A stretch of 64,000 nt of DNA from Chryseobacterium sp. SORGH_AS_0447 (GTDB taxonomy: Bacteria; Bacteroidota; Bacteroidia; Flavobacteriales; Weeksellaceae): contig NZ_JAUTAR010000001.1 of the NCBI RefSeq assembly GCF_030818695.1, positions 310,001 through 374,000 on the forward strand. Direction: 5' to 3'. Under the pieces are notes generated by a model. That model did not search any database. It saw only the letters and a program-made list of their open reading frames with translations, and was not told the DNA's origin. The position numbers and the translations under genes are program-made. This document shows, piece by piece, positions 10,474-22,396 of this stretch; positions within the stretch are counted from its first letter, which is position 1, and every line of letters starts with the position of its first letter.

Positions 10474-11274
10474 TTAATTCTCGGCCAGTTCAGCTAAAGC
10501 ATTTTCGCCGCCATAAGTTTCAACAATGTATTCGGTAGCTACTTTTAAGGTCTTTCCGTTTTCCGGATGTTCCCCATAATTAGTGAAAAATTCTACATGA
10601 TTATCGCTCTTGTCATACCAAACTTTACCCTTCGCATTTTCGATTGTAAGCGTGTCCGGTCGCGTTATTTTTTTCTGATGTACAAATTTAGTGGGATCCA
10701 TGGGAACCACATCAGTCTGAGGATTTATATAACTGCTGTCACTGGCTATGTAGCGGTCTTTATCCCAATACATATAAGGTTTTTCAATGGCCGGAGGTGC
10801 CCAAATTGACGTAAAGCCAAAAATTCTTTTTGGGCCTTTAGAAAATACCACGCCGCCTGTCACGAGAAGTAATACAAAAGCCATTTCTACGATTCCCGGT
10901 CCATTCTTTTTGAGGAAATCAGGCATTGTAAAAATAGGCTTATTGATTATAGTAATCATAATTTTAGAAATCGCTTGCTGAATCGTGTGTTCAATGGTTT
11001 TCCACCCAGCACAATATTCTCTAAAATTGTCATATCCTACATACCTGCTTAGATTATCCAAAATTGGCGTTTTTATTTTGTAATCTACATCATTCTCAAC
11101 GATTGCCTTGTAGTAGTTCTCAAATGATTTATAACTCAGCGGTTCGAAATGATCTTCTAAAGTTCTCTCTAAATGTAAGAGAATTCCATTAAATGAAGTT
11201 TCTGTAGTTGTACTAGAAGCTTTTTCATAAACTTCCTCTAATAGTCTCTTTCTCTCGGGTAAAAATTTTGACAT
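10474..11274 (-). CDS. Hypothetical membrane-anchored protein
   Basis: A 266-aa protein I cannot assign to a family. The N-terminal ~120 residues are helical, with a motif (LDNLSRYVGYDNFREYC, about residues 73-89) that recurs in flavobacterial hypothetical proteins. A single membrane segment (VEMAFVLLLVTGGVVF) lies around residues 129-144. The rest is a Lys/Asp-rich domain of about 120 residues that would lie on the other side of the membrane. There is no N-terminal signal, so the membrane segment itself should direct insertion. It diverges from the structured region at 11.3-11.6 kb and starts the AT-richer accessory stretch. Confidence 0.75.
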   Translation of the reverse strand: MSKFLPERKRLLEEVYEKASSTTTETSFNGILLHLERTLEDHFEPLSYKSFENYYKAIVENDVDYKIKTPILDNLSRYVGYDNFREYCAGWKTIEHTIQQAISKIMITIINKPIFTMPDFLKKNGPGIVEMAFVLLLVTGGVVFSKGPKRIFGFTSIWAPPAIEKPYMYWDKDRYIASDSSYINPQTDVVPMDPTKFVHQKKITRPDTLTIENAKGKVWYDKSDNHVEFFTNYGEHPENGKTLKVATEYIVETYGGENALAELAEN

Positions 11275-11323
11275 ATGTATGATTATTATTAATTCGAAAT
11301 TATAAAGAATTCAATCAACATCA

Positions 11324-11383
11324 TTACGGTTTTCCGCATATCTCACCGAAAAAAACTTTCCAAAAACTTTCCAAAAACTTTCT
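11324..11383 (+). promoter_or_regulatory. Partial operator plus three 11-bp phased CTTTCC repeats
   Basis: TTACGGTTTTCCG at 11324-11336 is identical over 13 nt to the operator at 15165, but its second half-site is degenerate (CGCAT instead of CGTAA). CTTTCC/CTTTCT follows at 11356, 11367 and 11378, one helical turn apart on one face of the DNA. A near-consensus -7 box TTACTTTG is at 11407-11414. It would control transcription toward the small ORF and the kinase. Confidence 0.45.
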
Positions 11384-12012: not shown

Positions 12013-13644
12013 ATGATAAAATATTTATTAATTATTATGTTTTTTCTGGTTTCTTGTAAAAAGGAAAAACAGCAAAGTTTTGATACAATTAATGGAGATA
12101 AATTTTATGACGAAGGAATTTTATTACTTCAAAAAAATAATATTGAAGCATATAAAAAATTCCAACAAGCAATTAATTATTATAAGAAACAAAAAGATAA
12201 TTCAAATATCTCTAAGAGTTTAATTTGTCAAGCAATTGCTCAACAAGGAAGTGGTGACATATTTGGAGCTGAAGCAACTTTAGTAGAAGCTTTAAAAATA
12301 ATAAAAGATAACGATGAAAGCCTTTATTCTATTTATGATACATTGGGCAACTTAAAATTAGATCAAAAAGAATATGAACAAGCTCTTAAATGGTATAATA
12401 AGGCATTGTCAGAAAATACTATTCCTGAAACATCACGAATCAATATTTTAAGTAATAAATCTGTAGCAGCGTTTAAATTAAAACGCTATGATGAAGCGTT
12501 AGACATTTTATCAAAAATAGATCTTACTAAAGATCTTGATTTAAAATTAAAAAATAGAATAAGAGATAATATTGAATATATAAAATGGTTAAAAAATAAA
12601 AATTATCCTGCTCAAAGAAATATCGAGGCAATCGCAGGACTAAAACAAAAGAATTCTGATTTTTGGGGCCTAAATTCAACATATGCACATTTATCAGATA
12701 TCTATAAAAATATAGATAATGAAAAATCTCTTTTTTACGCAAAAAAGATGTATGAAACAGCAACAAAAATCAAAAGCCCAGATGACAAATTAGAATCTAT
12801 TGAAAGATTAATAATATTGGATAGCCCTGTAAATTCAAAAAATTATTTTAATCAATATAAAAAACTTTCAGACAGTATCCAATCTAGTAGAAATGATTAT
12901 AGAACTAGATTTTCTTTTATAAAATATGATAGTGAAAGAAAAGAATTAGACAATGCACAAAAAGAATTAAAAATTTCAAGACAATACTTTTTCCTAGGTC
13001 TTTTAGGATTAGCAATTATTATATTAATCATCTGGTATACCAAACGACAAAAGCAACTAAAACAGGAAAAAGAACTCGAAGTCAAAAACACCCAGCTTAA
13101 AATGTCCAAAAGGGTTCATGACGTGGTCGCGAACGGGATTTACCAGGTGATGGCGAAGATTGAGAACCAGAAAGATTTTGACCGGGATAAGGCGCTGGAC
13201 GAACTGGAATTTGTGTATGAAAAGTCGAGGGATCTTTCGTATGAGAAAGCCGGGGAGGAAAAAGAGTTCAGCCAGGAAATTTCAGAGCTTATCGCCGGAT
13301 TTAATAATGCAACGGTGAAAACCTTTACGGCAGGCAATGATCCTTCAGTCTGGGAAAAAGTATCTCCGGCCGTGAAAGAAGAAGTCTACCAGATGGTCCG
13401 TGAACTGATGGTGAATATGAAAAAGCACAGCCAGGCCAGCCATGTGGCGGTTAAATTTGAAAAAACCGGTGAAACCGTTGAAATCCAGTACAAAGACAAT
13501 GGTGTAGGGATTTCCGGGGATCTTATTTATAAAAATGGCTTACGGAATACGGCTTCCCGTATTGAAGCGATCGGCGGGACGATTACTTTTGACACAAAAA
13601 TTGAAAAAGGGTTGAAAGTGAATCTCTCCTTCCCTGCTTCGTAA
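12013..13644 (+). CDS. TPR-containing lipoprotein-type sensor histidine kinase (NarL/HisKA_3-like class)
   Basis: A 543-aa kinase. The N-terminus is a lipoprotein-type signal (FFLVSC, Cys15). TPR helices fill about residues 25-280, then a membrane segment (YFFLGLLGLAIIILIIWY, about 325-343) and a cytoplasmic kinase core. The phosphoacceptor region reads KRVHDVVANGIYQVM with His369, and the ATPase domain has a DNGVGISG motif; no separate HisKA helix pair of the OmpR-partner type is seen. It is followed after 10 nt by a response regulator, its probable partner. Base composition changes sharply at about codon 355: the sensor half is extremely AT-rich (10 G/C of 60 at 12121-12180) and the kinase half normal (23 of 60 at 13441-13500), implying a recombined or imported sensor module. 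Confidence 0.9.
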   Translation: MIKYLLIIMFFLVSCKKEKQQSFDTINGDKFYDEGILLLQKNNIEAYKKFQQAINYYKKQKDNSNISKSLICQAIAQQGSGDIFGAEATLVEALKIIKDNDESLYSIYDTLGNLKLDQKEYEQALKWYNKALSENTIPETSRINILSNKSVAAFKLKRYDEALDILSKIDLTKDLDLKLKNRIRDNIEYIKWLKNKNYPAQRNIEAIAGLKQKNSDFWGLNSTYAHLSDIYKNIDNEKSLFYAKKMYETATKIKSPDDKLESIERLIILDSPVNSKNYFNQYKKLSDSIQSSRNDYRTRFSFIKYDSERKELDNAQKELKISRQYFFLGLLGLAIIILIIWYTKRQKQLKQEKELEVKNTQLKMSKRVHDVVANGIYQVMAKIENQKDFDRDKALDELEFVYEKSRDLSYEKAGEEKEFSQEISELIAGFNNATVKTFTAGNDPSVWEKVSPAVKEEVYQMVRELMVNMKKHSQASHVAVKFEKTGETVEIQYKDNGVGISGDLIYKNGLRNTASRIEAIGGTITFDTKIEKGLKVNLSFPAS

Positions 13645-13654
13645 CCGTTTTGTT

Positions 13655-14317
13655 ATGTTTAAAAAAGTATTAATTGTTGAAGACCAGGAAGTCGCCAACC
13701 TGGGCATTCTACGGAACCTGGAAGAATTATCGATTCCCCATTGTGAATTTGCAACCCATTGTGATGAAGCCCTGCAAAGGCTGAAAACCTCAGCCACAGA
13801 AAATAAGCCGTACGACCTGCTGATCGCCGACCTTTCTTTTGAAAAAGACCATGTCCGCCAACACCTGAAAAACGGACAGGAACTGATCCGGGAAGCCAGA
13901 AAGGTCCAGCCCGAACTTAAAGTCGTGGTGTTTTCCGTAGAAAAGCGGGCAAGGATCATAGACGATCTTTATAAAACTTACCGCATCGACGGGTTTGTAA
14001 GCAAGTCCAGAAACGACGGGAAAGAGCTCAGGAATACCATCCGGAAAGTTTTTGAAGGAGAAACCGTGATGTCGCAGGAAATTCTGAATGCCATCCGGAA
14101 TATCCCTTTCGCACTGGATGCCTACGACCTCAAACTGCTGGAGCTACTCGCCAAAGGTTCCAAGCAGCACGAAATCCAGGCTTACCTGAAAGAACACCAG
14201 ATGCAGCCCTACAGCATCCGCTCCATCGAAAAAAGACTGAACGAGCTCCGCGACAGCTTCGGGGCGAAAAACAATATCGAGATGATTGTGATCTGTAAAG
14301 ATATCGGACTGATCTGA
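13655..14317 (+). CDS. Response regulator with receiver and LuxR-like output domain
   Basis: A 220-aa regulator. The receiver domain (about 1-130) has acidic residues after strand 1 (VEDQE), phospho-acceptor Asp59 in LLIADLSFE, VFSVE after strand 4 and a lysine in SKSRN. A C-terminal helical domain (about 150-220) with SIRSIEKRLNELRD resembles the recognition helix region of LuxR/FixJ-type domains but is divergent. It lies 10 nt after the kinase gene and is almost certainly phosphorylated by it. The next gene is a paralogue. The TTACG-N6-CGTAA repeats downstream are candidate binding sites; that link is inference. Confidence 0.88.
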   Translation: MFKKVLIVEDQEVANLGILRNLEELSIPHCEFATHCDEALQRLKTSATENKPYDLLIADLSFEKDHVRQHLKNGQELIREARKVQPELKVVVFSVEKRARIIDDLYKTYRIDGFVSKSRNDGKELRNTIRKVFEGETVMSQEILNAIRNIPFALDAYDLKLLELLAKGSKQHEIQAYLKEHQMQPYSIRSIEKRLNELRDSFGAKNNIEMIVICKDIGLI

Positions 14318-14353: not shown

Positions 14354-14398
14354 TTACGAGAACCCGTAATGGCGGAATGATAAATGCTTTTACTTTTG
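14354..14398 (+). promoter_or_regulatory. Operator-promoter of the second response regulator
   Basis: TTACG-AGAACC-CGTAA at 14354-14369, then 21 nt, then the exact -7 box TACTTTTG at 14391-14398. No TTG -33 element is present; the inverted repeat sits where it would be, as expected for an activator-dependent promoter. Geometry is identical to 15165-15209. Confidence 0.65.
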
Positions 14399-14436
14399 AG
14401 GTCTTAAACCTATATTTTTAATTAAACCGTATAACC

Positions 14437-15102
14437 ATGTTCAAAAAAATTTTAATTGCCGAAGATCACGAAAGCATCAACATTTCCGTCCAGAAAACCC
14501 TTGAGGATCTGAATATTCCGAAGGTAGACTATGTGTACTACTGCGATGATGCGATCGGGAAAATCCAGAAAGCCCTTCGGGAAGAGCAGCCCTACGACCT
14601 GTTGATCACCGATCTTTATTATGAAGAAGACCACCATACCCAGCATCTTAAAGACGGTAAAGAGCTCATTGAGAAAGCAAGAACCCTTCAGCCCGATCTG
14701 AAAGTGATCGTCTTCTCCGCTGAACGCAAGACCGGCGTCATCGATAATCTTTTTTCCGAGTATCACATCAACGGCTATGTGCAGAAGGCCCGTAATGATT
14801 CCAAAGATTTAAAGAAAGCCATTGCTTCCGTATACATCGGCGAAGATCATATTTCCTTTGAGCTCAAACAGGAAATGAGAAAGTTCAACAATTATGAATT
14901 TTCCGCCTACGATATCGTAATTGTGTCCCTGCTTTCCAAAGGGGTACTGCAAAAAAACATTCCGGCCCACCTCGAAGAAAAGAGCATCCGCCCTTCTAGC
15001 CTCAGCAGCGTGGAAAAAAGACTCAACAGCCTGAAGGAAGACCTCAGCGTCAACAGCAACGAGCAGCTGGTCGCCTTCTGCAAGGATCTCGGAATCATTT
15101 AA
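14437..15102 (+). CDS. Second, paralogous response regulator
   Basis: A 221-aa protein collinear with the preceding regulator. It has the same start (MFKK-LI-ED), phospho-acceptor Asp59 in LLITDLYYE, VFSAE, a conserved lysine in QKARN, and a similar C-terminus ending CKDLGII (CKDIGLI in the partner). The output domain differs more (SLSSVEKRLNSLKE). It arose by tandem duplication but has its own promoter with the shared inverted repeat, 119 nt after the first regulator, and its own terminator. It may be autoregulated or activated by the first regulator, forming a small cascade from a single kinase. Confidence 0.88.
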   Translation: MFKKILIAEDHESINISVQKTLEDLNIPKVDYVYYCDDAIGKIQKALREEQPYDLLITDLYYEEDHHTQHLKDGKELIEKARTLQPDLKVIVFSAERKTGVIDNLFSEYHINGYVQKARNDSKDLKKAIASVYIGEDHISFELKQEMRKFNNYEFSAYDIVIVSLLSKGVLQKNIPAHLEEKSIRPSSLSSVEKRLNSLKEDLSVNSNEQLVAFCKDLGII

Positions 15103-15122
15103 CTTATTTATTTTGTTTACAG

Positions 15123-15143
15123 CCTTTCAAGTTTTTTGAAAGG
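15123..15143 (+). terminator. Terminator after the second response regulator
   Basis: CCTTTCAA (15123-15130) pairs perfectly with TTGAAAGG (15136-15143), followed by seven T. It separates the regulators from the eleven-gene operon. Confidence 0.88.
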
Positions 15144-15164
15144 TTTTTTTATTTTTTGCCGGTT

Positions 15165-15209
15165 TTACGGTTTTCCGTAAAAAAAATTCATCAAGGGGTG
15201 ATACTTTTG
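15165..15209 (+). promoter_or_regulatory. Operator-promoter of the eleven-gene operon
   Basis: TTACG-GTTTTC-CGTAA at 15165-15180 (extended by one further base pair on each side), 21 nt, then TACTTTTG at 15202-15209. The first gene starts at 15231, giving a short leader of about 15 nt. As at 14354 there is no TTG -33 element. The repeat, spacing and -7 sequence match the promoter of the second response regulator exactly. Confidence 0.68.
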
Positions 15210-15230: not shown

Positions 15231-15494
15231 ATGGAATACAAAGTAATACCTTTTGTTGCAACAGTGAACCCAAATAATATGAGTTCCAAAAATATTGCAG
15301 AACAGTTAGATCAGTTAGTAAAAACCCACACTGAGAATGGGTGGGAGTATGTAAGGCTTGAAAGCGTATCTACCTACGTACAGCCGGTAGAGGGCTGCTT
15401 TGGAAATACGGAAAAATCCGGATACATGACCTCCTTTCAGATGGTCGTATTTAGTAAAAAAGAAGATGAAAAATCTCCTGCTACTTCCGATTAA
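15231..15494 (+). CDS. Small DUF4177-like protein, first gene of the operon
   Basis: 87 aa. The frame is open upstream to 15156, but that region contains the promoter, so ATG 15231 (MEYKVIPF) is chosen. The pattern of an N-terminal beta strand, a helix with QLDQLVKTHTENGWEYVRLES and a terminal strand FQMVVFSK is typical of DUF4177-like proteins, whose function is unknown. There is no signal peptide. The last 29 nt overlap the yidD-like gene, indicating translational coupling. Confidence 0.75.
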   Translation: MEYKVIPFVATVNPNNMSSKNIAEQLDQLVKTHTENGWEYVRLESVSTYVQPVEGCFGNTEKSGYMTSFQMVVFSKKEDEKSPATSD

Positions 15495-15753
15495 AATGTA
15501 TTGGCGGATCATTCCACCGTCAAAAAGAAGAAAATGTATTTTCAGAACAAGCTGTTCAAAATATGTATATGAGAAAACAACAGCAGATGGATTTGTTTCA
15601 GGACTAAAAGCATTGAAATACCGCTTCCAAAACTGCAGATCCGGAGCCTGTATCATCGAAAACCTGACAGGAGAAACCTATATTATCCTGCCGAATCAAC
15701 AGATTCTGAACGAATCAGAAATTTCAGAACGATTTATTAAAAATAAAAATTAA
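15466..15753 (+). CDS. YidD-family membrane protein insertion efficiency factor
   Basis: 95 aa. The family signature is clear: a basic, hydrophobic N-terminus with WRIIPPSKRRKCIF, then TSCSKYVYE, a Gly-containing helix (GFVSGLKALKYRFQNC) and a final Cys. YidD is a small inner-membrane-associated protein that assists YidC-dependent insertion. Elsewhere it is usually encoded in the rpmH-rnpA-yidD-yidC block; here it is the second gene of an accessory operon, so it is probably a specialised copy. The C-terminus extends about 30 residues beyond the core with a strand-rich segment (ETYIILPNQQIL). Confidence 0.88.
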   Translation: MKNLLLLPIKMYWRIIPPSKRRKCIFRTSCSKYVYEKTTADGFVSGLKALKYRFQNCRSGACIIENLTGETYIILPNQQILNESEISERFIKNKN

Positions 15754-15758
15754 TAACC

Positions 15759-16112
15759 ATGGGAAAATTTGTCATTACCCGAAGAGTAAACAACGAATAT
15801 CAGTTTAATCTGAAAGCCGGAAACGGCGAAATTATTTTAACCAGCGAAGGCTATGTCCAGAAAGTTTCCTGCCAGAAAGGAATCGAATCGGTAAAAGCCA
15901 ATGCTCAGGATGATTCCCGATACGACAAAAGAACAGCCGTTAACGGAAAAGTATATTTTGTTCTAAAAGCAAGGAACGGCGAAATTATCGGAAAAAGCCA
16001 GCTGTACAGTTCAAAATCCGGCATGGAAAGCGGAATTGCTTCCGTAAAGTACAATGCGCCCACCGCAGAAATCGTTGATGAAACCGTAAAAACCAATGAA
16101 TATGGATCTTAA
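15759..16112 (+). CDS. YegP/DUF1508-family protein
   Basis: 117 aa made of two tandem DUF1508 units (about residues 7-55 and 62-110). Each has the pattern F-L-K-A-NGEII--S--Y-SK-----GI-SV: compare FNLKAGNGEIILTSEGY with FVLKARNGEIIGKSQLY. Family members such as E. coli YegP are small cytoplasmic proteins without an established biochemical role. It begins 5 nt after yidD and overlaps the nuclease-like gene by 17 nt. Confidence 0.92.
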   Translation: MGKFVITRRVNNEYQFNLKAGNGEIILTSEGYVQKVSCQKGIESVKANAQDDSRYDKRTAVNGKVYFVLKARNGEIIGKSQLYSSKSGMESGIASVKYNAPTAEIVDETVKTNEYGS

Positions 16113-17172
16113 AATTAAACTTGAGCAGCTGCACCAGAAAGTCGTTGGCCTGAAAGACCAGATCGGAACGGAAGAGGCTACCAAAAATGCATTCGTCATG
16201 CCTTTTATCCAGATTTTAGGCTATGATATTTTCAATCCTACAGAAGTAGTTCCTGAGCACGTTTGTGATATCGGAACGAAAAAAGGGGAAAAAGTGGATT
16301 ATGTGATCCGTCACAACGATGCTCCGATATTCATTATTGAATGCAAGCACTGGAAAGAAAGCGCCGATGCCCACAATTCGCAGCTTCACCGGTATTACCA
16401 TGTTTCGAAAACCCGATTCGGCGTGCTCACCAACGGAATTGTCTATAACTTCTACACGGATCTGGAAAAACCGAATATTATGGATGAAAAGCCATTTTTC
16501 ACCATTAATATCGAAGACATTAAAGACAGTTCCATTAAGATTCTGGAGAAATTCACCAAGAAAGATTACAATCTTGAAGAGATCCTGGATTCTGCAGAAG
16601 CCCTGAAATACATCAAAGCGATCCGCAAGGAATTTGAAAAGGAAATAGAAAATCCTTCGGATGAGATGGTTAAACTGTTGGTCAGCCGTTTTTTCGAAAA
16701 ACCGATTACCGCCAACCGGATGGTTCCGTTTAAGGAATATACCAAAAAAGCACTCACGACTTCCATTAATGAGTCTATCAGTTTCAGGCTGAAGTCGGCT
16801 TTAAGCATTAATGAACAGATCGAAAAGCAGGACGATGCGGTAAAAACACAGCAGCCGGTTGATGAGAATAACGAATCGAAAATCGTAACTACCGAAGAGG
16901 AATTGGAGGGCTTCCAGATCGTAAAAGCAATTCTGCGCGAGAAAATTCCTTCGACCAGGATCGCCTACCGCGATACCCTATCGTATTTCGGGATCCTGCT
17001 GGACGACAACAACCGTAAACCGCTCTGCAGGCTTCATTTTAATACAAATAACAAATATCTGGAAACCTTCCATAACGGAAAGGAAGCCGGCGAAAAAATC
17101 CTGCTGGGCACGCTGGATGAAATTTATAATTACCGTGATAAACTCCTGATGACCCTGGAGAACTATAACTAA
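16096..17172 (+). CDS. Solitary type I restriction HsdR-N-like nuclease-domain protein
   Basis: 358 aa. The N-terminal ~150 residues match the HsdR N-terminal (PD-(D/E)xK) fold: Glu26 in GTEEATKN, the catalytic set Asp68 (GEKVDYVI), Glu82 and Lys84 (IIECKHW), then HRYYHVSKTRFGVLTNG. All nuclease residues are intact. There is no helicase domain, and no hsdM or hsdS gene is near. The middle is helical and charged; the C-terminal ~90 residues look like a separate small alpha/beta domain (SYFGILLDDNNRKPLCRLHF). Such stand-alone proteins are common, poorly characterised, and often labelled restriction enzymes. Here it belongs to a putative stress or defence operon rather than a modification system. 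Confidence 0.85.
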   Translation: MNMDLKIKLEQLHQKVVGLKDQIGTEEATKNAFVMPFIQILGYDIFNPTEVVPEHVCDIGTKKGEKVDYVIRHNDAPIFIIECKHWKESADAHNSQLHRYYHVSKTRFGVLTNGIVYNFYTDLEKPNIMDEKPFFTINIEDIKDSSIKILEKFTKKDYNLEEILDSAEALKYIKAIRKEFEKEIENPSDEMVKLLVSRFFEKPITANRMVPFKEYTKKALTTSINESISFRLKSALSINEQIEKQDDAVKTQQPVDENNESKIVTTEEELEGFQIVKAILREKIPSTRIAYRDTLSYFGILLDDNNRKPLCRLHFNTNNKYLETFHNGKEAGEKILLGTLDEIYNYRDKLLMTLENYN

Positions 17173-17182
17173 ACTGATAACC

Positions 17183-17692
17183 ATGAAAAAACTAATACCC
17201 TTCATCATAATCACTTTCAGTGTATTTATTTTAAATTCTTGTTTTAAAGCCAACGACAATGTAGGCCATGACGGTAGATGCACCGGCTCTGCCAATTGTT
17301 CTGCGTGCTCCAACTGTTCAGGGTGTGGACATTGCAACAGTGGAGGGTCCTGCGGAGTCTGCGGTGGAGGATCTTCCGGAAGAAGTTCGTCTTCCGGGAG
17401 TTCTTCCAAAAAAAGCAGCTCTAAAAAACACAAAACCTCAAAATCAAAATCCAGCAAGCCGCCAAAAGTTCGTATTGATAAGATAGATATCAATATCAAT
17501 TCTAACAACAGGTACTTTGCAGGAGTTGCGGGAGTCAGCATTTATGAACGTCCTTCCGAAAAATCGAAGATCTTAATTAATGTTACCAGAAATGACCGGC
17601 TGATTAAGCTGCAGGAGATGAAAGACTGGTATAAGGTAAAAGTAGAGCCCGCCAATAAAACAGGATATATTAAACGAAAGGATGTGAAATAA
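17183..17692 (+). CDS. Cys-rich lipoprotein with a bacterial SH3 domain
   Basis: 169 aa. A lipoprotein signal ends ILNSC (Cys20). Residues about 32-60 form a dense cysteine cluster of the CxxCxxC type (NCSACSNCSGCGHC), followed by a Ser/Lys low-complexity linker (about 65-92) and a C-terminal SH3b domain (about 105-169) with GVSIYERPSEKSKIL and DWYKVKV. SH3b domains often bind peptidoglycan. The cysteine cluster could bind metal or form disulfides outside the cytoplasm, which is unusual. The role is unknown; its position suggests the envelope arm of the operon. Confidence 0.82.
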   Translation: MKKLIPFIIITFSVFILNSCFKANDNVGHDGRCTGSANCSACSNCSGCGHCNSGGSCGVCGGGSSGRSSSSGSSSKKSSSKKHKTSKSKSSKPPKVRIDKIDININSNNRYFAGVAGVSIYERPSEKSKILINVTRNDRLIKLQEMKDWYKVKVEPANKTGYIKRKDVK

Positions 17693-17707
17693 TCAAAAAC
17701 AAATATC

Positions 17708-18334
17708 ATGAATTTAAAGAAATTTTTAAATGAAGAGCAGGATCCACAAGCTGTCGAAAAGCTTTTGGGAAGGATCAACAGCCTGCTGACTTCGCAGGAA
17801 ACAGTGGAATATATTGCGGTTCAGAAGAAACCGATCCTCAATTTTTCTCCCGAATGTATTGCACTTACCAACAGAAGAATTATCTTCTGCAGACCGAGAA
17901 CCTTCGGGTTATCAATGGATTTCCAGGATTACCGATGGGTAGAGGTCTTAGACTGCCACATTAAAGAAGGAATTGTCGGTTCTACCTTTATGATGAAAAC
18001 TACAAAAAACTTCACCAATATGGTGGATTATCTTCCAAAAAACCAGGCCAGAAAACTTTATCAGTTCGCACAGGAAGTGGAAGAAAGAATGCACGGAGTG
18101 AGAAGAGAAAAAAGTCTGGAAACCCTCAGGGCCTCCGCCGGAGGTGTGACGGTAAACAATGCCACTCCGATTATCACTCAGCCACAGCAATTTCAGCAGG
18201 AGAACAAACCTTTATTGATTGAAAATGAGGACCCCTTTGCATTATTGCAGAAATTAAAAGATTTAAAGGAGAACGAAATAATTTCTTCTGAAGAATTTGA
18301 AACAAAAAAGAACGAAATCTTATCAAGAGTTTAA
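17708..18334 (+). CDS. Bacterial PH-domain protein with C-terminal SHOCT motif
   Basis: 208 aa. Residues about 20-120 resemble bacterial PH (YokE-like) domains: ALTNRRIIFCRPR in the middle, then DYRWVEVLDCHIKEGIVGSTF. A flexible Gln-rich linker leads to a terminal SHOCT helix pair (DPFALLQKLKDLKENEIISSEEFETKKNEIL, the canonical layout). SHOCT motifs are short oligomerisation or tethering elements commonly attached to membrane or stress proteins. No signal peptide or membrane segment is present. It sits 3 nt before the TM2 gene. Confidence 0.87.
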   Translation: MNLKKFLNEEQDPQAVEKLLGRINSLLTSQETVEYIAVQKKPILNFSPECIALTNRRIIFCRPRTFGLSMDFQDYRWVEVLDCHIKEGIVGSTFMMKTTKNFTNMVDYLPKNQARKLYQFAQEVEERMHGVRREKSLETLRASAGGVTVNNATPIITQPQQFQQENKPLLIENEDPFALLQKLKDLKENEIISSEEFETKKNEILSRV

Positions 18335-18337
18335 GTT

Positions 18338-18553
18338 ATGAAATCAAAATCTACCACCGTTTTACTTACCTTTTTCTTAGGAGGATTAGGCATTCACAGA
18401 TTTTATTTAGGACAGAATGGTATGGGAATACTTTATCTTGTCTTTTGCTGGACTTTTATTCCTGCATTTATTGCACTTATTGATTTTTTTGTGTTCCTTT
18501 TTATGTCTGAATATCGTTTTAATAACAAATATAACCTTAAAACAGGATTTTAA
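18338..18553 (+). CDS. TM2-domain membrane protein
   Basis: 71 aa, essentially only a TM2 domain: a first membrane helix (TVLLTFFLGGLG), the conserved connector HRFYLGQ, and a second helix (LVFCWTFIPAFIALIDFFVFLF), then a cytoplasmic-type tail. TM2 domains pair two helices around a conserved polar turn; their biochemical role in bacteria is unknown. A second TM2 protein, with an added N-terminal domain, is encoded at 21.7 kb just outside the operon. Confidence 0.93.
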   Translation: MKSKSTTVLLTFFLGGLGIHRFYLGQNGMGILYLVFCWTFIPAFIALIDFFVFLFMSEYRFNNKYNLKTGF

Positions 18554-18561
18554 ATCACATC

Positions 18562-18963
18562 ATGAAACCACTTCTCACCTTCTGTGCGCTGTGTTGTTTC
18601 ATCGGTATTTTCAAACTTCCTATCGAATATTATACTTTTCTGAGAATTCTCGTTTCCGCCGGAGCTTTATTGGTTTTATACCATACGATAACTTCGAGAC
18701 AGCCTTATTTCAGTATCGTATTTCTTGTCATCCTCATTCTTTTCAATCCTGTTTTCCCGATCTATCTCTACCGGAAAGGCATCTGGATTCCGATTGATAC
18801 CATAACGGGGATCCTGTTCCTGCTGATCAATTTCATTGAGAAACAGGTACCTGAAAAAGAAGAGGAAATAACCGAAGAAACACAGGAACATACATTACCG
18901 ATACATCAGCGAGCTGTTTCCAGAGACCGAATTATTAACCCTAAAAAACTAAAAGAACAATAA
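18562..18963 (+). CDS. DUF6804-like small membrane protein
   Basis: 133 aa with four hydrophobic segments: residues about 1-20, 23-44, 50-75 and 78-95. The N-terminal part, with LPIEYYTFLRILVSAGALLVLY and ILFNPVFPIYL, resembles the DUF6804 family of unknown function. The C-terminal ~35 residues are charged and Glu-rich. It lies 8 nt after the TM2 gene and 4 nt before the TerB-like gene. Confidence 0.72.
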   Translation: MKPLLTFCALCCFIGIFKLPIEYYTFLRILVSAGALLVLYHTITSRQPYFSIVFLVILILFNPVFPIYLYRKGIWIPIDTITGILFLLINFIEKQVPEKEEEITEETQEHTLPIHQRAVSRDRIINPKKLKEQ

Positions 18964-18967
18964 CCGT

Positions 18968-19375
18968 ATGGAAAACAATCAGATAACGGAAAACCTTAAA
19001 GCCCATTTTTTAAGACTGTATCAAATGGCAGTCTGTGACGATGATTTCAGCGCACTGGAATTGAAAATGCTTTACAGATGTGCCGAAGAAAGAGGGATTT
19101 CTCCTAAAAATCTGGATGAAATACTGATGAACCCGATCAATTTAAAATCATGGGTGCCACAGACCATTGAAGAAAAAGTGGATTATCTCTATGATCTTAC
19201 CGCCATGATCTGGGCAGACGGCACGGTTTCCCCGAATGAATATAGTGCCATGCAGAAATATGTGGTCATGTTCGGATTCCTGGAAGAAAATGCAACGGCT
19301 ATTGTAGACTATCTTATTGAAGCTGTAAAAACCGGAAAAAACAAAAGTGAAATTTTATACGAACTCAAAAACTAA
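18968..19375 (+). CDS. TerB-like helical protein
   Basis: 135 aa, all helical, with two acidic turns typical of TerB/DjlA-type domains: AVCDDDFSALELKMLY (about 18-33) and AMIWADGTVSPNEYSAMQKY (about 78-97). TerB-type domains are associated with tellurite and general stress responses and with membrane-linked complexes; acidic residues in these turns bind metal in characterised members. There is no signal peptide. It immediately precedes a coiled-coil membrane protein that could anchor it. Confidence 0.78.
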   Translation: MENNQITENLKAHFLRLYQMAVCDDDFSALELKMLYRCAEERGISPKNLDEILMNPINLKSWVPQTIEEKVDYLYDLTAMIWADGTVSPNEYSAMQKYVVMFGFLEENATAIVDYLIEAVKTGKNKSEILYELKN

Positions 19376-19380
19376 GCATT

Positions 19381-20721
19381 ATGGATACATCCAACATAAA
19401 AAATTTATTCCGGCTGAAGCCGGCTCCTGCAGAACCAGCACAGGAAGAGCTTCCCAAAACCGAAGTGAACCCTGATGATGAATCTCTTGAAGAAAGCAGG
19501 AGAAGAACCTATCACGAATCGGGATACCGCGACAGTTCGCGCACCAGCGGAAACCACTCTACCCTTTCTATCTGCCTGGATGCGGTATATTCCAAATTCC
19601 AGAATGAAGAAAAAGAAATGGTCGAAAAGCAGCAGAAGCTGAAAGAATCTTACGTCAATGAACAGAAAAACAGGGAAACGGAAATCAAAGCATTAACGGT
19701 CTCCCAAGAGACTAGAGAGGAACAGCTGAAAACAAAGAACACAGAAATTGAAAACCATCAGCATACGATTGAAAACTTAAAAGCTGAAATCCTTGATTTA
19801 CCCAGAAATCCAGAAAAGTATAATGTGAAAGCAGGAAGGGGAGCTTCTGCCAAATTCTGGATCGGTACGATTCTTTTGATTCCTATCACATTATACCTGG
19901 CTACTTTTTATATATCGACCTCATATTCAGCTTTCTTCAAAAGTTTTGATGCAAAAAGTACGGTTATCCAAAGTGTACTGGATGCCAATGCCTGGATGAA
20001 AGCGTGGAATGACGGGTTTATTGAAGTGGCATTCGTCACCCTTATTCCATTTGTTTTCTTAGGATTAGGATTTCTGATTCATATGTTCGGAGAAAATAAA
20101 ACCAAAATCAATTATATTAAACTTGCCCTATTATTCATCGTAACTTTTATTTTTGATGCTATTCTAGCATATGAAATCGAGTCAAAATTATACGAATTAA
20201 ACAAGACTTTCGAATCTCCTCCATTCGACCTTAAAATAGCTTTTACGAAGATTCAATTCTGGGGAATTATCTTTGCGGGATTCGTTGTATATGTTATCTG
20301 GGGGCTGGTTTTTGATTTTATCATGAAAGAGCACCGTGAAAAAGACAGGATTAAAAACGAACAGGAAATCCGGCAGAAAAAAGTGGAATTCTTTCAGGAA
20401 AAGATCAACACCCTGAAAAAAGAAATTGAAGAGATTATAGCCAATATCGGAAGCACCAAAGAACTTATTATCAAAACCCGTGGCAGAATCGAAGAACTGC
20501 AGAACATCATAGACGGCGTTATTATCCCTACCAAAGATTATAAACTCTATGCTTCGGAATATGTGCAGGGCTGGATTACATTTATCGGAGAAAAAATCGC
20601 TGTATCCAAAACGGAAAAGCAAACCATGATCGACACCTGTATTGAAACTTACAACACGAATCTGGAAACCGTCGGAGCCAATTCGGATAACCAGAACCTG
20701 GTTTATTTATCATCTCTTTAA
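19381..20721 (+). CDS. Coiled-coil protein with four membrane helices, unknown function
   Basis: 446 aa, not recognised. The order is: charged, disordered N-terminus (about 1-65); coiled coil (about 70-145, rich in Glu/Lys/Gln); membrane segments near 160-182, 217-240, 248-268 and 293-315; a second coiled coil (about 318-385) with an ELQNIIDG break; and a soluble tail. This layout suggests an inner-membrane scaffold with long cytoplasmic rods on both sides of the membrane block. It lies between the TerB-like and vWA-like genes, with 5- and 9-nt gaps, and may bring them together at the membrane. Confidence 0.8.
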   Translation: MDTSNIKNLFRLKPAPAEPAQEELPKTEVNPDDESLEESRRRTYHESGYRDSSRTSGNHSTLSICLDAVYSKFQNEEKEMVEKQQKLKESYVNEQKNRETEIKALTVSQETREEQLKTKNTEIENHQHTIENLKAEILDLPRNPEKYNVKAGRGASAKFWIGTILLIPITLYLATFYISTSYSAFFKSFDAKSTVIQSVLDANAWMKAWNDGFIEVAFVTLIPFVFLGLGFLIHMFGENKTKINYIKLALLFIVTFIFDAILAYEIESKLYELNKTFESPPFDLKIAFTKIQFWGIIFAGFVVYVIWGLVFDFIMKEHREKDRIKNEQEIRQKKVEFFQEKINTLKKEIEEIIANIGSTKELIIKTRGRIEELQNIIDGVIIPTKDYKLYASEYVQGWITFIGEKIAVSKTEKQTMIDTCIETYNTNLETVGANSDNQNLVYLSSL

Positions 20722-20730
20722 ATCTACTTT

Positions 20731-21618
20731 ATGAAAAAAATATTCTACTTGCTATCAATCGTTTTTGTGGTTTCTTGCTGTAAAAAAGGAGGAGAAAATA
20801 CAGAAGGAAATAAAACAGACACCGTTGTTGCTGATCCAAACAATATCAATGTCAGTATTTTGATCGACCTTTCAGACCGGATAGATCCTGCAACCAATCC
20901 CAATCATGCAATGCCATATTTTCAACGGGATACCGAATACATCAAAGCCATCGAAAAAGGATTTCTCAATCATATGAAATCCAAAAGAATCATCACCTAT
21001 GACGATCAGATGCAGGTGTTTTTCAATCCGGAGCCTTCCGATCCCAAGATCAATGATTTCACAAAAGAACTAAAGGTTTCTTTTGATAAAAATACGTCGA
21101 AAGAATATTTTGCAGCCGTTGAAAAGAAATATTCCGAAATTCCGTCATACATTTATCAATCAGCCATTAAAGATAAAAATTATATAGGCTCCGACATCTG
21201 GGAGTTTTTTAGAAATAAGGTCAAAGATTACTGCGTAAAAAATGATAAAAGAAATATTCTTTTTATCCTGACAGACGGTTATATGTATCATGATGATTCT
21301 AAATTTTCACAGGAAAATAAAACCTCCTATTTAACTTCAAAACTGATAAAATCAAATAATCTTACGACAACAGATTTTAAAAAGATTATCGAAAAGAACA
21401 AATACGGCTTTGTAAAGGCAAACGATGGCCTTAGCAATCTTGAGGTAGTCGTTTTAGGAATTAACCCTGAAAAAGGAAACCCCTTTGAAGAAGCCGTTAT
21501 CAAAGAATATTGGGAGAACTGGTTTAAAGAAATGAAAATCAAAAGCTATCAGATCAAATCGGCTGATCTGCCTTCCAATCTGGAACCGATTATTATGAAA
21601 GTGGTTACGGGAAAATAA
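20731..21618 (+). CDS. vWA-like lipoprotein, last gene of the operon
   Basis: 295 aa. A lipoprotein signal ends VVSC (Cys16). The body looks like a von Willebrand A-type alpha/beta fold: the first strand and metal-site loop read VSILIDLSDR (Asp46, Ser48), and a later strand reads NILFILTDGYMY, matching the central TDG of vWA domains. The usual DxSxS site is imperfect because the last Ser is replaced, so metal binding may be altered. No catalytic motif is visible. It would present a protein-binding domain at the outer face of the membrane. Confidence 0.75.
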   Translation: MKKIFYLLSIVFVVSCCKKGGENTEGNKTDTVVADPNNINVSILIDLSDRIDPATNPNHAMPYFQRDTEYIKAIEKGFLNHMKSKRIITYDDQMQVFFNPEPSDPKINDFTKELKVSFDKNTSKEYFAAVEKKYSEIPSYIYQSAIKDKNYIGSDIWEFFRNKVKDYCVKNDKRNILFILTDGYMYHDDSKFSQENKTSYLTSKLIKSNNLTTTDFKKIIEKNKYGFVKANDGLSNLEVVVLGINPEKGNPFEEAVIKEYWENWFKEMKIKSYQIKSADLPSNLEPIIMKVVTGK

Positions 21619-21624
21619 AGAATA

Positions 21625-21667
21625 GCTTACCGCTTTAAATTAAAATCAGCAATCCTTGAAGGTAAGC
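21625..21667 (+). terminator. Weak hairpin after the operon
   Basis: GCTTACC (21625-21631) pairs with GGTAAGC (21661-21667) over a 29-nt loop. There is no good T tract, so it may be a leaky terminator or a regulator site before the next gene. Confidence 0.3.
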
Positions 21668-21709
21668 GTATTTCTGCATTTTTATTAACTTGCAGGCTTT
21701 AAAATAATC

Positions 21710-22396
21710 ATGACAAATCATTCGCTTGTTTCCAATCCAAAAAAGAGCATAATAGTAGATTTTCCTTTAGAAAAAATCAGGGAAAGTGTTAAAAACATCT
21801 CATTGCTTGATCATAAGTATGAGCCTGGTCAGCAAGACGATGTTTTTAACCAGTATATATTTAAAGCAAGTGAATTTTTAAGTTGGGGAGCCGTTATTCT
21901 TATCAATTTAAGCCGTGTTTCTGAAAATAAGACTGAAATAAGCATTGAAGTAATGAGAAATTTTGGTGCTTTTGATTCTTCTGTGGAAATTCAAGATGCA
22001 AATAGACACCTTATTAATGTTGTAAACTATATTTCTCGCTTAACAACATTGTCTTCTCAAGAAATTGCAGGAATGAAAACCCGGCTTCAGCAGGTTGAGG
22101 CAGAACGAGAACGTGAAAAAAGGAAAAAGTCAGAAGAAAGAGCGGAAAGAATTGAAGTTATGAAAGTAAGATTTCATCGGAGAAATAAAACGGCAGCCGC
22201 TGTTCTGGCTTTATTCTTAGGATTTGCCGGTGCACACCGTATCTATCTGGGACAGCGCACCAAAGGATATATCAGTGCTTTCTTTTTTTGGACTTTAATC
22301 CCTTCAGTAATTGGCATAATAGATTTTTTTTCCTTCATCTTCATGTCTCAGGAAAAATTTGATGCTAAATACAATTCAGAAAATATTCTAAAGTAA
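21710..22396 (+). CDS. TM2-domain protein with N-terminal soluble domain
   Basis: 228 aa. Residues about 10-115 form an alpha/beta domain I cannot name (start IIVDFPLEKIRESVKNI; later strands VILINLSRVSENKTEISIEV). The strand pattern is compatible with a small START/SRPBCC-like fold. A charged helix (about 120-155) leads to a C-terminal TM2 domain (about 160-220) with FAGAHRIYLGQ and FWTLIPSVIGIIDFF. It is closely similar to the stand-alone TM2 gene at 18.3 kb. A 91-nt gap separates it from the operon, so it may have its own promoter. Confidence 0.82.
   Translation: MTNHSLVSNPKKSIIVDFPLEKIRESVKNISLLDHKYEPGQQDDVFNQYIFKASEFLSWGAVILINLSRVSENKTEISIEVMRNFGAFDSSVEIQDANRHLINVVNYISRLTTLSSQEIAGMKTRLQQVEAEREREKRKKSEERAERIEVMKVRFHRRNKTAAAVLALFLGFAGAHRIYLGQRTKGYISAFFFWTLIPSVIGIIDFFSFIFMSQEKFDAKYNSENILK

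Follow-up and report, generated by a model that had tools for sequence, protein, structure and literature searches.

An RcsB-like two-component system predicted to activate a modular, defence-rich regulon in Flavobacteriales

Introduction

An RcsB-like two-component system of Chryseobacterium is proposed here, with a probability of about 0.8, to activate directly a modular regulon that is rich in defence genes. The proposal is carried by the sites of a shared operator, their spacing, their conservation, their co-occurrence with the regulator and the enrichment in defence genes downstream of them. The earlier note on this DNA had limited the reach of the operator to the two-component system itself and an eleven-gene operon; the regulon turned out to be far larger and rich in anti-phage genes. 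Its range is best read as Flavobacteriales, perhaps with Sphingobacterium, for which the evidence consists of two loci. Taken together, this suggests that a single sensor governs part of the antiviral defences of these bacteria.

Gene products of the locus

The window, i.e. the whole stretch of 64,000 nucleotides that was analysed, contains a sensor histidine kinase gene (12013..13644, plus strand), whose product carries a putative lipoprotein signal, TPR repeats (Pfam TPR_2, 2.3e-10), a transmembrane segment and a HATPase_c domain (4.8e-08), with the lipobox, the membrane segment and the H-box assigned by eye and a C-terminus that is NarQ/LiaS-like at scores under the curated cut-offs. The genes for response regulator 1 (RR1, 220 aa; 13655..14317, plus strand; Response_reg, 2e-08) and response regulator 2 (RR2, 221 aa; 14437..15102, plus strand) follow, and the two proteins are 44% identical. 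Downstream lies the eleven-gene operon (15231..22396, plus strand), drawn from open reading frames and Pfam matches and presumably co-transcribed, which encodes DUF4177-like, YidD, DUF1508, HSDR_N nuclease-like, SH3, bPH_3 + SHOCT, DUF6804 and TerB-like proteins, a coiled-coil membrane protein, a lipoprotein and a TM2 protein, the DUF4177 and TerB matches scoring under the curated cut-offs. A 227-nt gap within the operon (18335-18561), in which no inverted repeat with up to two mismatches was found, may contain a terminator or an additional promoter.

The regulator has a receiver domain (Pfam Response_reg, 2e-09), in which E9, D10, D59, S94 and K117 are invariant among 15 aligned sequences; these residues are taken to provide the phospho-acceptor Asp and the acidic, Ser/Thr and Lys positions. 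A C-terminal four-helix helix-turn-helix of the GerE type is also found, and the Pfam GerE model itself gave no match in the regulator at E 0.1. The predicted model of RR2 (pLDDT 86.6) has an RcsB-like full-length fold and aligns over 198 residues with DNA-bound RcsB. By this modelled fold, the regulator is an RcsB-like response regulator of the LuxR/NarL type.

Four operator modules

Scanning the window for whole modules (inverted repeat, spacer of 18-24 nt and TAnnTTTG box) resolves the locus into four units of operator and -7 box, each with a spacing of 21 nt. Two of them are the TTACG-N6-CGTAA repeats previously described at 14354-14369 and 15165-15180, which are indeed present on the plus strand as TTACGAGAACCCGTAA (operator 2) and TTACGGTTTTCCGTAA (operator 3) and are followed, exactly 21 nt further on as had been claimed, by the same -7 box, TACTTTTG (14391..14398 and 15202..15209, plus strand). 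Their positions agree with the assignment of the former to RR2, a corresponding 21-nt site being found in two-regulator loci, and of the latter to the first gene of the operon. A site absent from the earlier note, operator 1 (ATACGGCTTCCCGTAT; 13547..13562, plus strand), emerged from the sequence scan inside the kinase gene and 5' of RR1, and is predicted to drive RR1 from a further copy of TACTTTTG (13584..13591, plus strand) that lies 21 nt past it.

Operator 4 (11324..11339, minus strand), which reads ATGCGGAAAACCGTAA-N21-TAATTTCG with its box at 11295..11302 on the minus strand, had been reported as a third, degraded site upstream of the kinase region. The identity over 13 nt holds, its first 13 nt being shared with the site at 15165-15180; its role as a kinase promoter is ruled out, since the module points the other way, toward a minus-strand gene (10474..11274) whose ATG lies about 20 nt downstream of the box. 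This predicted target encodes a 266-aa protein without a Pfam match above cut-off. An operator-like site also precedes its counterparts, matched by place and orientation alone, in C. soli, an uncultured Chryseobacterium, C. oryctis, two Sphingobacterium, F. salmonis and Muricauda.

Promoter architecture

The distinct sites of the genus, 96 in number, define a better consensus, TTACGG-NWWN-CCGTAA, the two central bases being A/T in nearly all of them. In F. psychrophilum, the -7 box occupies -12..-5 (PMC9723704); with the start site taken from that box, the palindrome covers about -49 to -34 and is centred near -41.5. An operator placed 21 nt before a TAnnTTTG box is thus at the position of a class II activator. 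The phase is fixed as well, and a good -33 element is lacking: a TTG anywhere in -36..-28 was found at six of the 96 distinct sites (21-nt spacing), in line with the previous claim that a -33 TTG is missing.

The constancy of the spacing extends to the sites away from the regulator. Among those listed in the genus, 100 located elsewhere than immediately behind RR2 were retrieved (four further listed sites were left out), 97 with and three without a downstream frame. Although 13-29 nt were permitted, 96 of the 97 have the box at 20-23 nt (21 nt in 78, 22 in nine, 20 in seven and 23 in two), the last one at 14 nt. RmuC-family genes (one of which was scanned) are found at 22 rather than 21 nt in four genomes, including the source genome (L138, L187, L194 and L255).

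A palindrome lying across the -35 region could also block the polymerase, so that the regulator would repress at these sites. We consider this unlikely, since there is almost no -33 TTG to block and a strict 21-nt spacing is typical of polymerase contact rather than of occlusion; activation is the reading retained in the following.

Near-exact sites and chance

How loosely the motif may be read was decided by controls. The inverted repeat by itself, with up to two mismatches, shows no enrichment in the window (25 occurrences versus 21.5 expected), and the full pattern with up to three mismatches shows no excess in the source genome (81 versus 112 for the reversed control); both counts were dropped as evidence and, because of the latter, only near-exact sites were counted. 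In the source genome (4.37 Mb), the module occurs four times exactly and six times with one mismatch, against about 0.006 and 0.25-0.27, respectively, expected from base composition at a GC content of 0.36-0.38 (that of the window is 0.41). Of the 59 genomes of the genus, 57 contain the exact module, with a spacing of 13-29 nt allowed, and not one contains the reversed control; both genomes that lack the module (G028 and G030) also lack a regulator orthologue. The failure of the loose versions to show enrichment could be held in favour of a chance or compositional artefact. Such an artefact is, however, ruled out for practical purposes by the controls in the own genus, the family and the order, and by the reversed and wrong-spacing patterns in the viral contigs described below.

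In three genomes, the regulator gene is broken by a stop (G053, C1:775113-775773; G142; G235), with five, two and no exact sites, respectively.

Conservation of the regulator locus

Conservation of the repeat and of the 21-nt spacing in related loci had been set beforehand as the check on the operator, and it was passed: an operator with 21 nt follows RR2 in all 44 genus loci, i.e. those of the best 44 RR2 matches, operator 3 being the representative in the window. Sites also recur around the regulator in 14 named loci, including two Sphingobacterium, Flavobacterium salmonis, Leeuwenhoekiella, Muricauda and Zobellia, one of the 14 (L268) having no site after the regulator. A minus-strand site matching operator 4 (up to three mismatches overall) is found in seven of the 14; its arms are perfect in Sphingobacterium micropteri, and the minus-strand sites of F. 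salmonis (20 nt) and Muricauda are weak.

In four loci of other species (L154, L111, L120 and L132), the module recurs about 2-7 kb past the regulator, in L154 ahead of a DUF1508-like gene, a layout suggestive of an adjacent operon broken up into units under separate control.

A promoter within the codons of the kinase

Operator 1 is embedded in the codons of the kinase G2 box (NTASRI). When kinases were picked by protein motif only, 43 were found in the 44 genus loci, and all 43 carry a repeat with no more than two mismatches to NTACGGNNNCCCGTAT, a 21-nt spacer and a TAnnTTTG box. Codons inside the palindrome are frozen (Thr ACG in 37/37, Ser TCC in 40/40, Asn AAT in 28/28 and Thr ACT in 24/24), whereas the same residues nearby vary, the Thr codon at +19 being ACA in 10, ACG in 11, ACC in 14 and ACT in four. 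The embedded site is also kept in two Sphingobacterium kinases.

Co-occurrence of regulator and operator

The joint distribution of the two elements is the strongest evidence that the RR2-type regulator reads the operator. Among 296 genomes of the order sampled, which from the named loci and their taxonomy we take to be Flavobacteriales, 62 have both, nine the regulator only, none the operator only and 225 neither; in other words, the exact module occurs in 62/71 regulator-positive and 0/225 regulator-negative genomes, the corresponding figures in the other families of the order being 25/31 and 0/216. In the family (246 genomes, regulator called at E<=1e-20), the regulator is present in 172 genomes and the operator in 156, with 154 having both, 18 the regulator only, two the operator only and 72 neither (154/172 versus 2/74; 400 versus two sites). 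The two regulator-negative family genomes have one exact operator each, and without the own genus the operator is found in 63/77 regulator-positive versus 2/70 regulator-negative genomes. The p-values (1e-54 for the order and 4e-42 for the family) are inflated by relatedness, and the two samples overlap; the more independent part of the evidence is that regulator and operator are present in the same 12 of the 33 genera of the family, plus a second family.

Another regulator with the same specificity might be the true binder, in which case the genes of the locus would merely be targets. The source genome has another weak homologue (G000:C1:3271996, E 1.8e-5), and one genome (G038, 87% complete) has sites while no regulator orthologue was found in it. 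We regard this as quite improbable in the face of the shared set of genera and the second family, of the order sample, in which not one of the regulator-negative genomes is an exception, and of the site kept at the regulator's own locus in each of the 44 best RR2 matches. The local RR2-type regulator is thus preferred as the reader of the operator.

Genes behind the operator

In the source genome, the operator precedes cas9 (followed by cas1 and cas2), genes for GmrSD/Orf5-like, OLD-like ATPase and DUF4062/PDC-S60 proteins, a type III restriction gene and, behind DUF3606, a PDC-M22B/LmuB-like gene, along with DUF4236-like genes, RmuC and lipoproteins. Matches to defence proteins were obtained there for Cas9, Cas1, the Orf5/GmrSD-like protein, a piece of OLD, type III restriction, PDC-S60 (partial) and PDC-M22B, the type III restriction and PDC-M22B genes not being the first frame behind their sites. 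The OLD-like ATPase gene (L242:5706-7506, minus strand) apparently consists of two overlapping frames.

Across the genus, the 97 targets of the listed sites fall into 55 families. They include a CBASS cyclase (3.7e-110), GajA of Gabija (3.5e-198), a type III methyltransferase (7.3e-190), HamA of Hachiman (3.5e-108) and JetA of Wadjet (1.4e-213), and also PDC-M62A, PDC-S71, DUF4297, type I restriction, modification or restriction proteins of types I, II and III, and candidate systems; these PADLOC matches are to single proteins rather than whole systems, and the methyltransferases among them may be orphans. Matches at E<=1e-40 were found for at least 19 of 66 targets (14 sequence families), as compared with none of 66 random genes, whose best match was 3.1e-31 (p 8e-7), so that the presence of several unrelated defence genes among the targets exceeds chance. 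In this count, the 66 are the 97 targets minus 31 repeats, 29 were scanned singly after being chosen by eye, the remaining 37 were scored as misses and RmuC is not among the 19; the random genes, taken from ten of the same genomes, are shorter (mean 272 versus 344 aa) and may include spurious reading frames. A bulk scan at 1e-10 gave 241 models matched by the targets versus 26 by the random genes. In other genera, 40 sites were annotated and ten targets scanned: DrmD (4.1e-203), GajA twice (1.3e-250 and 3.8e-198), PDC-S46 (1.9e-240) and AriA (7.5e-42) were matched at E<=1e-40, and of the other targets two gave weaker matches and three none.

Among the targets of the listed sites, the TerB_C family (10 sites) and the DUF4236 family (nine sites) recur most often, one member of each having been scanned; bestrophin-like proteins, RmuC, DUF3606, lipoproteins and many proteins of no known kind complete the non-defence targets. 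Eight of the ten members of the commonest family, whose proteins are about 480 aa long and which gave the TerB_C domain in the member scanned, start 83-88 nt past the box (the ten comprise L117, L128, L148 and seven more).

This composition leaves room for a general envelope or DNA-damage stress regulon, which defence genes would have joined since phage attack is one stress among several, a possibility that we take seriously without expecting it to hold. RcsB controls an envelope stress response, the kinase has TPR repeats, the prominence of TerB_C and DUF4236 together with TerD, RmuC, TM2 and YidD fits a broad stress output, and the site is found at RmuC and bestrophin-like genes of several species. 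With many targets not being known defence genes, a stress or envelope regulon of which defence is one part is almost as good a reading. However, in several genera the operator is immediately followed by many distinct defence genes of unrelated families, the random genes gave no strong matches, and Ter-type genes themselves frequently go together with phage defence. The number of the defence targets, their lack of relationship and their variation from species to species shift the weight, on the evidence of gene content, toward an immune role.

The reciprocal search from cas9 and gajA

Starting from the defence genes instead of the operator, an operator-like site (up to four mismatches) that ends 18-30 nt before the ATG was found at 18 of 23 full-length cas9 genes of the genus (17/22 without that of the source genome), with about 0.05 per gene expected by chance. 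All 18 sites have a box with one mismatch (TAnnTTTA) and one to three further mismatches in the repeat; at some cas9 sites (L320, L328, L333 and L334), symmetric changes of the arms, TTATGG..CCATAA, preserve the dyad. In other genera, the site is present at 6/14 cas9 starts in regulator-positive genomes versus 0/7 in regulator-negative ones. No site was seen beside the start of five of the 23 genus genes and eight of the 14 others. At 12 of 24 gajA-like loci, a site lies within 420 nt; these 12 include the two sites that had supplied the query, and the 5' end is missing from two of the 24 loci.

The palindrome before cas9 in the source genome (L241:2583-2598) is flanked on either side, at a distance of 21 nt, by a -7 box and could therefore fire in both directions.

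The module on viral contigs

The exact module also occurs on viral contigs of IMG/VR, where 71 sites were found in 70 stretches of 69 contigs (L367-L436), several of which are near-identical; the reversed pattern gave no stretch, the 16-nt spacer one and the 26-nt spacer two. The central bases are A/T in 68 of the 71 sites. The genes behind them are mostly small and of no known function, with families of 66 and 65 aa recurring. Compared with PHROGs, ten of these genes gave three CI-like repressors, one head maturation protease-like protein, one member of a function-less family and one weak match to another such family, the other four having no match. The occurrence of the module on viral contigs leads to the prediction that phages respond to the defence alarm of the host.

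Proposed mechanism

The envelope-anchored TPR sensor kinase would phosphorylate one or both of the adjacent RcsB-like regulators, which, as may be read from the dyad symmetry of the operator, would bind as a phosphorylation-dependent dimer. The phosphorylated dimer would occupy TTACGG-NWWN-CCGTAA at about -49 to -34, replacing the -33 element, and would recruit the housekeeping RNA polymerase to the TAnnTTTG box 21 nt downstream, i.e. class II activation. RR1, through the promoter inside the kinase gene, and RR2 would be activated in an autoregulatory manner, and the adjacent eleven-gene operon, the divergent gene at 10474-11274 and a scattered, species-variable set elsewhere would be activated as well. 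Since anti-phage and anti-plasmid genes are strongly over-represented in the scattered set, the system may be regarded as a transcriptional immune switch, whose targets would join by gaining one portable 45-bp promoter. The suggestion in the earlier note that the geometry fits activation by the local LuxR-type regulators finds support in the spacing, the co-occurrence and the RcsB fold; binding by the regulator, activation, phosphorylation and the inducing signal are what we infer from these sequences.

We lean, by a little, toward a broader reading as well, namely that of a plug-in immune regulon. The 45-bp cassette, read by one conserved two-component system, would have been acquired repeatedly by exchangeable defence systems, phages and prophages in Flavobacteriales and some Sphingobacterium, and would be found even in the catalytic codons of the sensor kinase; phages would thereby put lysogeny repressors and small proteins, possibly superinfection-exclusion or counter-defence factors, under the alarm of the host.

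Significance and comparison with known systems

The timing of bacterial defence-system expression is a largely open subject, coordinated control being described for the Gac/Rsm pathway of Pseudomonas (PMC11888443). The present system would be a second case, mechanistically direct and testable and in another phylum, with one regulator, one operator and predicted defence promoters that include that of cas9. The operator could be used as a guilt-by-association probe for new defence genes, e.g. TerB_C, DUF4236 and the eleven-gene operon, and the signal of the TPR kinase is a candidate bacterial danger signal. A literature search, limited to top-ranked matches and with most subscription journals outside its coverage, gave no paper that deals with this operator or with any defence regulon under a two-component system in Bacteroidota; the nearest published concept found was the Gac/Rsm defence regulon of Pseudomonas (PMC11888443).

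Several known systems share single features with the one proposed. In Bacillus subtilis, a LuxR-type response regulator binds the ComA box, TTGCGG-N4-CCGCAA, which presumably differs from TTACGG-N4-CCGTAA by one base per half-site; a literature search on the ComA box gave no match, and the phylum and the output are different here. WYL-domain defence regulators, which as far as is known sit in and control single systems, are alike in the transcriptional control of defence genes, whereas here one system serves many unrelated loci. Riemerella anatipestifer, which we take to belong to the same family as the source organism, offers a closer relative. According to passages of a study of this bacterium, a two-component mutant, in which about one third of the genes change, shows altered CRISPR gene expression, the system being of the PhoP/PhoR type by the authors' KEGG analysis (PMC5399024). 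The likeness thus lies in a two-component system that affects CRISPR genes in a related bacterium and the difference in its PhoP/PhoR type; those passages report no operator (PMC5399024).

RcsB, NarL and LuxR class II activators resemble the present regulator in the receiver and four-helix helix-turn-helix, in the fold match to DNA-bound RcsB and in a palindrome near -41.5, and differ from it in that here there is no Pfam GerE match (E 0.1), the -7 box is that of Bacteroidetes and the regulon is rich in defence genes. GacA is a LuxR/NarL-type regulator, and Gac/Rsm control runs via the Rsm pathway, i.e. RNAs and an RNA-binding protein. In Pseudomonas, the Gac/Rsm pathway coordinates defence against both viruses and other bacteria (Brinkley et al., PMC11888443), and it is alike in that a two-component system stands over a large, species-variable set of factors including phage defence. 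Unlike Gac/Rsm, the system described here, which belongs to Bacteroidota, would act through a DNA operator at a fixed distance before each target promoter and from a kinase-regulator locus that is itself autoregulated.
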